Shown here in pieces: positions 11,580-29,864 of a stretch of DNA of 64,000 nucleotides. A program made the position numbers and the translations under genes. The notes beneath the pieces are model-generated. The model worked only from the letters and a program-made list of their open reading frames with translations. It did not search any database and was not told the origin of the DNA. Positions within the stretch are counted from its first letter, which is position 1. Every line of letters starts with the position of its first letter. Source of the DNA: Glandiceps talaboti (lineage: Eukaryota > Hemichordata > Enteropneusta > Spengelidae); NCBI RefSeq assembly GCF_964340395.1, contig NC_135565.1:14119209-14183208 (forward strand). Direction: 5' to 3'.

Positions 11580-12412
11580 TTATTTGGTGTAAACTTGGAT
11601 ACAGTTGTAGAATGGCTTTGAAACTATAATCCTAGGATCATTGTGATGCTTACAAACAGCAATGTAACCCCAGTCTAGGTTATCTACAACTACTTCAACT
11701 TCTTCTCCATTCTTTGTATATTTCACAATGCACCCCCTAAGTGACCCCCTAAGTAACCTGGACTGAATACTATAAACATTATCCCATAAATCTACACTTA
11801 GCCCATAGGGTGAGTACAGACCATCAACCAATGAGAATAGAAAGTGTAGTTGGTCATTGTATACTTTGATACTACCATCACCCCAACCTCTACACCAGTC
11901 AGACACAAGGACATTATTCACAGAATTGACAACAACACCCTGAGGGTTAATGATTTGTCCTTTCTGACCTTGACCTTTGACCTCTGCTACACTTTCCCCA
12001 TTCATGTCATACTTGACCACTCTCTTCCCTTTACTATCTGTGACAACAAATCCTTCATGTAGTAAAGCAATCCACTCAGGATTTATGTTGTCATGTTGAC
12101 AAAATATTTGTGTAGTTTTAGAATTTTGTTGATAAACAACGACTTGGTGATTAGCAATATCACTCATGAAATATATATTGGATTTATTGGTGGTTGTCAC
12201 GGCAACATCCAATGGTTTGAATTCTTTGGGAAATTTACCATCAAATCTGATCTGAGAGTCCAGGTCATATTTAGAATTGAAAGTAAGAACTGAATGGCTT
12301 TCTGTAGCTGCAATGACCACTTGACCAAGGTGAGTTGTGGTCACTCCATTTGGATCTTTGAACTTTACTGGACCACTTTTACCATTTAATGTCATCGTTA
12401 CTTTCCACTGAC
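11580..12412 (-). CDS. Last exon of the kinase gene: NHL propeller
   Basis: A single 833-nt exon, entered after a phase-1 junction, encodes residues 378-654 of the kinase protein. I count about six blade-like repeats with the pattern P-x-G/D-hydrophobic and a closing V/I-x-[91 protein letters not shown], and the closing [16 protein letters not shown]. Such propellers bind protein or RNA in TRIM2/3/32/71-type proteins. Here it would be the targeting or sensor module of the kinase. An AATAAA hexamer (11579-11584 on this strand) overlaps the stop codon, and another lies at 11527-11532, implying a very short 3' UTR. Confidence 0.9.
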
Positions 12413-27400: not shown

Positions 27401-29864
27401 CTGAAATTTAAAGCACACATTCTAAAGAAATTATGCCTACTTATCAAAAGTGATTATTTATGCAAATGACAAACTGTAATTAAAAACTATATATAAAACC
27501 CACATCAAACACGTGTGCTTTGTTATGGTTGATGTATGTACCAAATTATATGAAATGTGTAGCTTACATTCTTAAGATTTAACCTAATTACCGAAAAATT
27601 ACTAATTATGCAGATTTCTTATTAAAACTAAAAGCTGCATATACAAGCTTTATAGAACATGTGCGTTTCGTTATGTTTGATGTATTAAGAACCAAATGTA
27701 TGAAATTTGAATCGTGTATTCTAAGATATAGCCTAATTATCAAAAGTAATTAATTATGCAAATGACATTACTATCAAAAACTATAGGAAATGGCCACTTT
27801 GTTTTTATCATTGAATACACGAGATTATATGAAATTTTGAAGGTTTCATTCTTAAGATACAACCTAATTGCCTGAAATCGTTAATTTACGAAAATGATTC
27901 ATTAAAACTAAAAGCTATGTCAACAGACTTCATGAAACATGTGCCATTAATTATGGTTGATATATTTACCAGATTATATGAATTTGGAAGGATGAGTTCT
28001 TACGATGCAGCTTAATTACTGAAAGTCATTAATTATGTAAATTACTCATGAGAACTATAGGCTACATAACTTTTTATAGGACAGTACATGTGCTGTGTTT
28101 ATGGTCAACGTATATATCAAATTACACTGTATATTGAATTTGAAGTACATATTCTTGAGATATAGCCCAATTGCTAGAAACCCTCAATTATGCAAATGAC
28201 TAATTATTTTATATCTACCAAAATCTAATCAATTTTTGCAATTTCCATATGAAAGATGTGTAGCAAGTTTCATTAGAATCGATGGAGTATGTTTGAGATA
28301 GTGTTCACAGACAGACAGACGGACAGACAGACAGACAGACAGACAGACAGACAGACAGACAGACATAGACAGACAGACAGACAGACAGACAGACAGACAG
28401 ACAGACAGACAGACAGACAGATACAAAGGGACAAACGTATACATAACTTTCCCTTACGGGAGGCATTTGGTTTGATTTGATAAAATTACTGAATAAGATT
28501 AACATGATGAAGACACTCATCCATACATCCATGAGATAGAAAAGTGAATCTAGTTTAATAAGTTATAATAATTACCTGTAAACATCAAACTTCTCATTCG
28601 CTTTTTTGTTTGGATCTTCTAAGTATTCAGGAGGTATGTGTGTGATTGTTCCACCTTTAGATGAAGTTATTGTTTGTGTGAGTGTTTTTAGTCTGGCCAT
28701 ACCAAAGTCTGCTATCTGGAAAAAAATGTTTAAAAAAAGTGATTTTGACACTTTTCCTTTAAAAAACATTCAAAATTACTCATCAAGTAACTTTTCACAT
28801 ATTGATAGTAACTACGTGTCTTACCGTTGAATACGAAATAATGTTCAACTTACCTTGATTGTTAAAAACTCGTCCAAGAGCAAGTTTGCAGCTTTCAGAT
28901 CCAAGTGTAATATTCTAATTAATCCTATTATCTTATGTAGATAATTCATACCAAGACAGGTTTCAAGTACGAACCGACATCTCAGGCACCATGGAAGATG
29001 TACATCAGTCGCCAGTAGAGTGTCTAGAGGCCCATTAATCATGTATTCCATCACAAGACCATAATACCTTGGGTTTGTGTAAAGTCCAAATAGTCGTACA
29101 ATATTCTGATGATTAGTCATACTCAGTTTTTTAGCCTCTTCCAGAATCATTTCCTGGTCACTATAGTAAGGAAATATATCGACATTAGATTGAGAGTTAT
29201 AAAATGCATAAAGTTGGGAATTATCCCATCCATCACGCTCACACTTAATTCATTGACTGTCGAGGTTTTGTGAATATATCCATCTATCAATAATGACGTC
29301 ATCAACGCGATTTGAGCATTGAAACCACGTGTTCAATGCTAATCCATGACAGGAGATATATAGAATGCACTACGTTTATTCTGATAATAATAGTGCAACT
29401 AAACTAAAGACATCAATTGTGTCGTTGGTTATGTATGGTACCTTGATTAAAACATTTCCACAATAAATAGCAATCAGTCGATATATTACGAGACATATAT
29501 TAAACAGTCATATATAATGCTAGGTTCACTTTCATACCTGTACGTGTACCCTTATTTTAGCATAATTCAAATGTGTGCGTTTTTGTATAATTCAAACGTT
29601 TGGCAATATGTGGCAAAGGTTGATTATTGAAACAAAACACGGAAAAGCTACTACTGTAACAAGGATGTTTACAATGCAAATTTAGCCTAGATCTTACCTT
29701 TTTTGCATACGGATTTTTCTGTAACATTTTTTAACAGCTACTTTTATCTGCCAATCTTTATGCATAGCTATATATACTTCTGCAAATGCACCCCCTCCAA
29801 TCACTTCATCGATAACATCTAAACTCTCTTCACTAATAATTTGCAAATCCTGGGCAGTCGCCAT
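11580..29864 (-). CDS. RIPK-like kinase with C-terminal NHL propeller (complete)
   Basis: Coding exons in transcript order: 29864-29698, 29160-28854, 28715-28576, 27183-27134, 26065-25913, 24695-24607, 22153-21997, 18093-18025 and 12412-11580. They total 1965 nt (654 codons plus stop), with GT/AG at every junction and consistent phase throughout. Residues about 17-300 form a protein kinase domain: glycine loop [10 protein letters not shown], Lys45 in VAVKK, Glu63 or Glu64 in ILEEAKKL, catalytic HLDLKAAN (Asp143, Asn148), DFG at 161-163, PPEYL in place of APE, then [13 protein letters not shown] and [12 protein letters not shown]. This signature is closest to RIPK4/ANKK1 and RIPK2. Residues about 303-378 are a charged linker, and about 379-654 are NHL-type repeats. 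RIPK4 and ANKK1 carry ankyrin repeats there and RIPK2 a CARD; I know of no described animal RIPK with an NHL propeller. Activity and signalling role are inferred. Confidence 0.93.
12413..14090. other. Intron 8 of the kinase gene, proximal part
   Basis: AT-rich intron sequence. At about 13435-13580 a roughly 66-bp unit (atcaaatg-cattatctattg, atatggccacaa or atatggccacac) is tandemly repeated two to three times. Nothing else is recognised. Confidence 0.6.
14150..17765. repeat. Long minisatellite, 47-bp unit, about 77 copies
   Basis: About 3.6 kb of tandem units that include actagaagactgtagtc, ccacctagacatgtag and taaaatatcacac. The array lies entirely in the kinase gene's intron 8, ending about 260 bp below the donor of exon 8. 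Copies differ at a few diagnostic sites (TGTAG/TATAG, CCCC/CTCC, ATATCAC/ATATGAC/ATACCAC). In about 16430-17220 the variants alternate in a regular order, indicating amplification of dimers or longer blocks (higher-order repeat). Edge copies at 14100-14470 are the most degraded, as expected for an array homogenised in its centre. Confidence 0.97.
18100..19600. other. Intron 7 of the kinase gene, no feature
   Basis: AT-rich intronic DNA with short C-rich runs at about 18293-18316. The fragment tagtctggatgccaactg at about 18126 resembles the hairpin termini at 34085-34150 and the start of a similar motif at 26284. No exon is seen. Confidence 0.5.
19620..20310. repeat. Array of diverged ~150-bp units ending in (CAGA)n
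   Basis: Four or so degraded units share tcac-gatggaatcat, ccaccaaattt or cattaaatttcagcccaatc, tgcccagtagttt and accaaaaatcacattttt. The array terminates in CACA then CAGA microsatellite (about 20245-20281). It is non-coding. A second, sequence-unrelated array of similar design lies at 27480-28425. Confidence 0.65.
20560..20985. repeat. 20-22-bp minisatellite
   Basis: About 18-20 degenerate copies of gaattaattttatgtatgtg or gaattaattttgtgtatgtg with ccc, gcc or gct joints. Intronic. It is followed at 20980-21200 by a short patch with higher GC (tcgcggcccgcagctcgcag) of unknown origin. Confidence 0.85.
21690..21915. repeat. Dispersed repeat family, copy 1 (copy 2 at 49815-50050)
   Basis: Shared with 49815-50050 in the same order: ggt-tagacac-tgaat-gagtct, agtttttgagtt, acaaatatgg, acaaagtgacgtgtatgtg or acaaagtgatgtgtgtatg, tatgacatgtcacctttgt, and gaaagaaattggatattgca. 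It is non-coding. One copy lies in a kinase intron and the other in a PI3K intron, so it is an interspersed element. Confidence 0.75.
22216..24320. repeat. Satellite block bounded by inverted poly(C)-containing ends
   Basis: The left edge (gggaccagtcagtttctcc with poly-G/poly-C runs, 22222-22380) is mirrored in reverse complement at the right edge (poly-C runs and gaaactgaccggtccctta, 24137-24265). A second related motif, aactgactggtcctaa, lies near 24302. Between them, about 22520-23590 holds four to five copies of a ~235-bp unit (tagcatcttgacagt, cctagaagccc, aagtcaattttgagactatt, cttacaagacagcaccaac). The arrangement suggests a non-autonomous element with inverted ends carrying internal tandem repeats, inside intron 6 of the kinase gene. 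Confidence 0.6.
23741..24000. repeat. Dispersed repeat pair, copy 1 (copy 2 at 33551-33815)
   Basis: Shares with 33551-33815 the ordered blocks gatgtggtgatttgta, gagtagaacaattt, ttataaactatct, caagttcacttttgcccc, gattgtgaaacag and catgacatgttctgta. Copy 2 has about 50 extra bases near its left end. It is non-coding; the family is unknown to me. Confidence 0.8.
25547..25756. repeat. (ATGT)n / (ATGC)n / (GTTT)n microsatellite
   Basis: A compound tetranucleotide repeat in an intron of the kinase gene. All three frames are open and give Cys/Met/Val/Tyr repeats of no significance. Confidence 0.95.
26385..26585. repeat. Dispersed repeat, copy 2 (inverted relative to 4285-4500)
   Basis: In reverse complement it carries the blocks seen at 4285-4500: a caccca-agtcattaac segment, a tttattgggg segment, gtccaaatatggt and gtcagctcgggatgct. 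It lies in intron 4 of the kinase gene. The motif tagtctggatgccaaca at 26284 lies nearby. Confidence 0.55.
26862..26919. repeat. (GTT)n and poly-G tract
   Basis: Trinucleotide GTT repeats followed by ten or so G residues, in an intron of the kinase gene. Confidence 0.9.
27480..28425. repeat. Array of diverged ~145-bp units ending in (CAGA)n
   Basis: Five to six degraded copies share a core of accaaattatatgaaat, attcttaagat-taacctaatt, taattatgcaaatgac and aactaaaagct. The last unit flows into a pure CAGA microsatellite (28306-28421). It is non-coding and sits in the intron that splits the kinase activation segment from the F-helix exon. Its design parallels 19620-20310. Confidence 0.7.
28576..29160 (-). 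CDS. Kinase catalytic-core exons (part of RIPK-NHL gene)
   Basis: Exon 2 (29160-28854) encodes residues 56-158, from helix C (ILEEAKKL) through the catalytic loop [13 protein letters not shown]. Exon 3 (28715-28576) encodes the DFG motif (IADFGMARL), an activation loop rich in Thr/Ser ([13 protein letters not shown]) and the PPEYL element. HLD replaces the usual HRD; RIPK4-type kinases have the same Leu, as far as I recall. All residues needed for phosphotransfer are present, so an active kinase is likely. The split between exons 2 and 3 falls just before the DFG. Confidence 0.93.

Follow-up and report, generated by a model that had tools for sequence, protein, structure and literature searches.

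A 64,000-nucleotide stretch of the genome of Glandiceps talaboti, an acorn worm (enteropneust hemichordate), (the window, G000:C18:14119209-14183208 of a 590 Mb assembly) contains a predicted gene, P0001, that joins a RIPK-family-like protein kinase to an NHL β-propeller. Comparison across the genome places this gene in a kinase-propeller family, whose propeller exon is shared with GT4-conflict genes and apparently with B-box genes. The reading we favor, with a probability of about 0.58, is that the product acts as a sensor kinase in the cytosol and that its propeller keeps pace with a changing ligand, in a way comparable to the B30.2 exons of fish NLRs and finTRIMs.

The gene model is confirmed at this place on the minus strand. 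It consists of nine exons (29864-11580) that together give 1965 nt, that is, 654 codons and a stop; nine codons ahead of the ATG the frame is closed by a TAA. All internal junctions are GT-AG and the splice phases are consistent, so that the nine exons and the single 654-codon frame proposed in the initial annotation stand. The identical 654-residue protein is present at NCBI as 'uncharacterized protein LOC144448279 [Glandiceps talaboti]', which is a gene prediction, presumably on the same assembly.

The Pfam kinase domain covers residues 18 to 278 (4.5e-51), and the catalytic residues K45, E63, D143, N148, D161, and E188 are all intact. The best solved relatives in a sequence search are RIPK4 (2.8e-51), RIPK2 (2e-48), and RIPK1 (7.3e-47), followed by RIPK3. 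A tree of 25 kinase domains, which contained no RIPK2 row, places P0001 as sister to its Glandiceps paralogue P0002 (96/95). The pair falls beside the RIPK3 and RIPK4/ANKK1 rows (80/85, or 96/94 without the Saccoglossus row) and outside the joint fork of these rows (94/93 and 90/91). Judged by sequence, the kinase is RIPK-family-like with its catalytic residues in place, and its tree position is near RIPK4, ANKK1, and RIPK3. At E-values up to 1, Pfam gave no RHIM, death domain, CARD, or ankyrin repeat in the 654-residue protein, and a scan of ncbifam returned below-cutoff matches only. A RHIM core was also not found by pattern, the same pattern recovering two RIPK1 rows but missing P0056, a RIPK3; a RHIM within the linker was rejected, there being neither a core motif nor a Pfam match. 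No clear transmembrane segment was found, the highest 19-residue hydropathy (1.54, from residue 133) lying inside the kinase.

The last exon (833 nt) encodes residues 378 to 654. Pfam NHL (PF01436) scores above cutoff there, at 1.7e-6 when the C-terminal exon is searched by itself and at 6.9e-5 when the full protein is used. A profile built from four Glandiceps propellers recovers the NHL domains of Thin (4.3e-34) and TRIM71 (1.4e-29) and also those of TRIM2/3, while the match to the NHL domain of PknD is weaker (1.9e-11 with the four-sequence profile and 1.3e-5 with a single sequence). The AlphaFold2 model, made from 17 rows, has a mean predicted local distance difference test (pLDDT) score of 79.9 and a predicted template modeling (pTM) score of 0.50. 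It contains 24 strands in exon 9, which we read as six four-stranded blades, with the first strand (residues 381-387) completing the last blade. According to this model, one terminal exon makes a complete six-blade NHL propeller. The initial annotation had noted about six NHL-like blades and had proposed Pfam and structure prediction of the translation as checks; both place the C-terminal part within the NHL/six-blade families. The model gives the linker no confident structure (residues 305-376 are below 50), and because of its low pTM it does not show how kinase and propeller are positioned relative to each other. The kinase and the NHL domain are the only domains above Pfam cutoffs, so that RING, B-box, and filamin are all missing from the kinase gene. 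The net charge of the propeller is +1, with a range of -12 to +4 in five related propellers, which speaks mildly against nucleic-acid binding.

The part of the earlier interpretation that places a RIPK-like kinase and an NHL propeller in one gene is supported, as HMM matching identifies the C-terminal part as NHL and the order of kinase, linker, and propeller recurs at other loci. The gene is not a single chimera and belongs to a family in Glandiceps. Further gene models joining a kinase to NHL are P0002/P0004, P0032, and P0121, although the listed isoform of P0121 keeps only the end of the kinase and lacks most of that domain. Kinase exon 2 has 15 matches in the genome (43/43 candidates scored), seven of which have a propeller exon downstream on the same strand within 60 kb, a limit that was set after kinase distances up to 55 kb had been seen. 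These seven loci are on C18 (three, including the window locus), C10 (three), and C26 (one). Exon boundaries within the kinase correspond at six loci besides the window, and linker exons are matched at several of these; on C10 and C26 kinase, linker, and propeller follow in order, with NCBI models P0121 and P0002. The remaining eight matches have no propeller in reach. Among them is C8:8504024, the closest kinase paralogue (C8:8502000-8506900, L041; 60% over exon 2), which has a matching exon layout. P0032 (kinase plus NHL, 797 residues) was also considered as a member of the family and was set aside, the grouping of its kinase with P0001 and P0002 being weakly rejected by the approximately unbiased (AU) test (p-AU 0.022); it may be a separate fusion. 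Outside Glandiceps, no kinase-NHL protein is among the protein matches listed (the best 120 of 370, and 2/2 and 32/32 in two more).

The propeller exon itself is far more widespread, with 137 genome matches (140 of 332 candidates scored). Partners were tallied over the best 65 of the 137 propellers, 15/15 kinase, 35/45 TRADD-N-like, and 61/102 GT4 places, so that the partner lists behind the following counts are incomplete. In the group of 29 C18-type propellers (at least 45% identity), the nearest same-strand upstream partner is a kinase in 3 cases, GT4-conflict or TRADD-N-like in 21, and neither in 5. The corresponding numbers for the next 36 propellers are 4, 18, and 14, or 19 GT4-conflict/TRADD-N-like and 13 without partner if a left-out row (C10:21542983, 19 kb upstream of a propeller counted as having none) is included. 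At the protein level, the propellers of the annotated proteins P0003 and P0005 are 64% and 56% identical to that of P0001. GT4-conflict scores above the Pfam cutoff in P0003, on C5, and is present only in part and below cutoff in P0005, whose contig has the same length as C18. The middle part of P0003 may be called TRADD-N-like by its resemblance to the published GT4-TRADD-N architecture (PMC8195603; papers are cited here and below from excerpts); TRADD-N in P0003 was not confirmed by Pfam. A B-box gene is apparently the third partner type, by position only: a B-box frame (PF00643, 2.7e-12) lies on the same strand about 8.5 kb upstream of a 71% identical propeller (L005) at C18 14.58 Mb. Two close propellers (synonymous divergence, dS, 0.056) were observed on C18 in opposite orientation and about 28 kb apart (G000:C18:14572100-14584207 and 14609403-14621400), with the B-box frame upstream of one and only an antisense trace for the other. 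GT4-conflict-type sequences are also greatly expanded in the genome: of 141 candidates 102 were scored and all 102 of these matched, many of them being single open frames of 420 to 490 codons.

The trees of the two halves of P0001 differ. Among annotated proteins, the P0001 propeller groups with those of the GT4-linked P0003 and P0005 (99/99), apart from the kinase-linked P0002 and P0121, and one clade for the three kinase-linked propellers is rejected (p-AU 0.004); the kinase tree, by contrast, joins P0001 and P0002. A wider tree comprised 16 Glandiceps propellers and 3 outgroups. Its partner labels were given by position except for the window (P0001), C5 (P0003), P0005, C10 at 4.10 Mb (P0121), and C26 (P0002), and the label of the row at C18 14.61 Mb comes from an antisense trace only. 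In this tree five C10 propellers, three of them kinase-linked and two GT4-linked, make up one group (98/97), the inner order of which is not resolved, and a second group (100/100) contains kinase-, B-box-, and GT4-type propellers from C18 and C5. When partners are assigned partly by position, a single clade of the seven kinase-linked propellers is rejected (p-AU 5e-51), and the tree calls for no fewer than 5 changes of partner. By sequence, the propellers group by chromosome and not by partner.

Kinase- and GT4-linked propeller copies on C10 are 93.8% to 97.5% identical in DNA over about 321 nt compared. On C18, two further propellers are 90% identical to that of P0001 while the adjoining kinases are only about half identical, and the exon therefore behaves like a copied or converted cassette. 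Between the window and the locus at C18 13.9 Mb the propeller has a dS of 0.032, and the synonymous sites of kinase exon 2 are saturated (synonymous differences Sd of 50.1 at S of 66.7 sites). Between the window and C18 10.1 Mb, 93% similarity extends only from about 45 nt before the exon to about 490 nt after the stop. The intron end with TGACCTTTGACC and the acceptor is common to the other two kinase-linked C18 propellers and was also read at 2/3 GT4-linked and both B-box-type copies of the C18 group. The propeller exon, its acceptor, and the 3' flank are far younger than the compared kinase exons. The simplest reading would be that a cassette of acceptor, exon, and 3' flank was duplicated or gene-converted between genes, in one direction or the other. 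We put at about even odds the wider proposal of a chromosome-local pool of NHL-propeller cassettes, in which copying or conversion would take place among genes of three types (RIP-like kinase, GT4-conflict, and B-box) and selection would diversify the ligand face. If true, such a pool would let a new recognition specificity be plugged into several kinds of defence output, including a kinase.

Variation among the propellers bears on what they may be doing. The three kinase-linked propellers of C18 differ at 40 nonsynonymous and 7 synonymous variable codon columns, with pairwise ratios of nonsynonymous to synonymous divergence (dN/dS) of 1.61, 1.16, and 1.20; other pairs among eight C18-type propellers, all eight of whose translated frames are open, give 0.55 to 0.87. 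By convention, the d-a and b-c loops of propeller blades are assigned to one shared face. In the three C18 propellers, 18/73 columns of these loops vary vs 1/54 columns of the a-b and c-d loops (p 1.7e-4), and over the eight propellers the d-a/b-c loops are again the more variable (0.82 vs 0.44 bits, p 8e-4). The test takes its strands from one AlphaFold model and its loop faces from this convention. This modeled one-sided change is a stronger sign than dN/dS and supports recognition by the propeller. The sensing and innate-immune role suggested in the initial annotation gains support in its recognition part from this pattern, and the remainder stays inferential.

Several observations weigh against a diversifying sensor kinase. 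The excess of dN over dS does not reach significance by itself (Fisher p 0.21, 0.48, and 0.41, for pairs that are not independent), and significance (p 0.006 and 0.037) appears only when noncoding flanks, that is, intron and 3' flank, are pooled into the synonymous sites, a choice made post hoc. Half of the nonsynonymous columns (20/40) are located in strands (20/146), and the clustering of changes along the sequence is modest (228/5000 permutations). An internal stop interrupts one of the 29 C18-type propellers (C18:14566285). The propellers at C18 13.9 and 10.1 Mb are tied to a kinase by position and weak linker matches, and the kinase exon at 10.1 Mb carries two in-frame stops and may belong to a pseudogene. 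As no RHIM core, death domain, or CARD was found, no known route to RIPK signaling is visible in the protein.

A sensor kinase of this kind would be a soluble enzyme that carries a propeller receptor on a flexible linker. The propeller would bind a fast-changing ligand through its d-a/b-c face, and this ligand is likelier a protein or glycan than RNA because the propeller is not basic. Binding would bring kinases together or relieve a restraint through the flexible linker, and the kinase would then autophosphorylate and start an innate defence or cell-death signal via some substrate. Exchange of the propeller exon, mostly within a chromosome, would spread recognition faces over different effectors. 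Mammalian-type necroptosis should not be assumed as the output, since RIPK3-dependent MLKL phosphorylation reportedly does not operate in a sea cucumber (PMC11932488).

The propeller could instead be a substrate-targeting or scaffolding domain of a developmental or house-keeping kinase, its diversity reflecting relaxed constraint after duplication. TRIM-NHL proteins use their NHL domains to interact with protein or RNA (PMC9634614, PMC5908797), a dN/dS near 1 is also expected from relaxation, and the one C18-type copy with a stop fits as well; the open state of the eight translated frames, the concentration of loop changes on one side, and the sharing with GT4-conflict genes, which would be unexpected for house-keeping, make this explanation rather unlikely. 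It is improbable that the propeller couples RNA recognition to the kinase by sensing or binding RNA in the manner of LIN-41 and Brat. Although by sequence its closest solved folds are TRIM-NHL domains, a class with some RNA binders, the charges given above are unlike the basic cavity described for LIN41, even if whole-domain charge is a weak test; as the propeller is not basic, RNA binding is ranked second and not first.

Two further alternatives concern the gene itself. Gene finders may have joined a neighboring kinase gene and propeller gene, an error of the kind cautioned about for zebrafish NLR models (PMC4852459), and the 5.6 kb length of intron 8 with its satellite would suit such an artefact. 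The propeller exon, however, opens at a splice acceptor, and the first ATG in its frame (residue 384) falls within the closing strand of blade 6. The order of kinase, linker, and propeller also recurs on C10 and C26, which leaves a mis-join very improbable. We also give little credence to an absence of exchange, that is, to recent duplication of whole genes followed by fast evolution of the kinases. Duplications are clearly common on C18 and C10, but the 13.9 Mb pair combines saturated synonymous sites in the kinase with near-identical ones in the propeller, selection at the protein level does not by itself accelerate synonymous sites, and similarity in the 10.1 Mb pair stops just ahead of the exon.

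A kinase and a β-propeller are combined in one protein, as in P0001, also in bacterial PknD and in LRRK. The propeller of PknD is extracellular, behind a transmembrane segment, and no such segment was found between kinase and propeller in P0001. LRRK proteins have a Roc-COR module and a kinase followed by a WD40 propeller, whereas P0001 has no Pfam match to Roc-COR or LRR. P0001 shares with the vertebrate RIPK4/ANKK1, RIPK2, RIPK1, and RIPK3 an N-terminal kinase of the same family, but those proteins carry ankyrin repeats, a CARD, a death domain, or a RHIM where P0001 carries the NHL propeller. The initial annotation had limited RIPK partners to these four, which was too short a list: amphioxus homologues carry LRR, SH3, ZU5, and Zalpha, and LRRK is termed RIPK6/7 (PMC9573974). 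The term NHL is absent as a RIPK partner from the excerpts of two RIPK catalogues, one including amphioxus (PMC9573974) and one including Saccoglossus (PMC11507063), and no description of an animal kinase-NHL or RIPK-NHL protein was found in the open-licence PMC literature. The domains are known, and their combination was not found described in that literature. If correct, an animal RIP-like kinase would be equipped with a receptor of its own that bypasses the usual adaptor domains, and the activation of RIP kinases without RHIM, death-domain, or CARD wiring would become testable.

The propeller compares best with that of TRIM-NHL proteins (TRIM2/3/71, Thin, Brat), which have the same C-terminal six-blade NHL domain but place a RING and/or B-box before it, and filamin; P0001 has none of these, and its propeller is not strongly basic. 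GT4-TRADD-N is an invertebrate conflict-system architecture with hemichordates among its hosts, in which propellers have been proposed as sensors of invaders (PMC8195603). P0003 and P0005 resemble it in combining GT4-conflict with a C-terminal repeat region, whereas the pattern published in that paper, as excerpted, has LRRs after TRADD-N in place of an NHL propeller. The closest analogy in organization is with fish NLR-B30.2 and finTRIM genes, in which a C-terminal recognition exon is related between immune families and shows gene conversion and positive selection, and the NLRs are concentrated on one chromosome arm (PMC4852459, PMC2657112). In both cases one C-terminal exon type is found on different effectors, in Glandiceps by protein a kinase (P0001) and GT4 (P0003/P0005). 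The fish sensor is B30.2 on an NLR or TRIM, and the Glandiceps counterpart would be NHL on a kinase, a GT4-conflict protein, and apparently a B-box protein. By this analogy, Glandiceps apparently provides an independent case of a shared recognition exon; if so, the fish NLR/finTRIM trick arose independently with other parts, and what NHL propellers recognize in invertebrate immunity could be tested.

Features of the kinase-propeller gene P0001, in window positions
Feature	Position	Strand	Evidence
Exon 1: start codon, glycine loop, β3 lysine K45	29698..29864	-	GT donor, phase
Exon 2: kinase core, αC Glu63, catalytic HLDLKAAN (D143, N148)	28854..29160	-	matching exon at 6 other loci
Exon 3: DFG (D161) to PPE (E188) and past it	28576..28715	-	catalytic residues, exon layout at other loci
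Exon 4: 17-residue segment of the kinase gene	27134..27183	-	junctions, comparison with other loci
Exon 5: end of kinase C-lobe	25913..26065	-	junctions, exon layout at other loci
Exon 6: predicted helical linker behind kinase (helix 286-303)	24607..24695	-	counterparts at other loci, AlphaFold2 model
Exon 7: linker modeled with low confidence, alignable in part with paralogues P0121 and P0002	21997..22153	-	alignment, model
Exon 8: short linker exon	18025..18093	-	junctions
Exon 9: predicted whole six-blade NHL propeller (residues 378-654) and stop codon	11580..12412	-	Pfam, profile, model
Last ~45 nt of intron 8 with TGACCTTTGACC and splice acceptor, putative 5' edge of cassette	12413..12458	-	shared flank sequence
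AATAAA polyadenylation signal, 47 nt 3' of stop	11527..11532	-	sequence

The satellite within intron 8 has a 47-bp unit in 76 copies (window 14166-17762). Elsewhere in the window, a TIR-domain exon is present at 39078-39569 on the plus strand (PF13676, 8e-14), with TLR2 (7e-12) and TLR1 (2e-11) as its best solved relatives. Upstream of it on the same strand are a frame resembling a membrane segment (38387-38671) and a frame that reads as Ig-domain-like and has no Pfam match (36405-36692). Together, 36405-39569 may possibly constitute an Ig-TM-TIR receptor gene 6.5 to 9 kb from the kinase gene. A class II PI3-kinase-like gene is represented at 48274-58183 on the minus strand by exons with C2, PX, and PI3/PI4-kinase domains, and a tandem repeat at 6765-7746 has long open frames on both strands.

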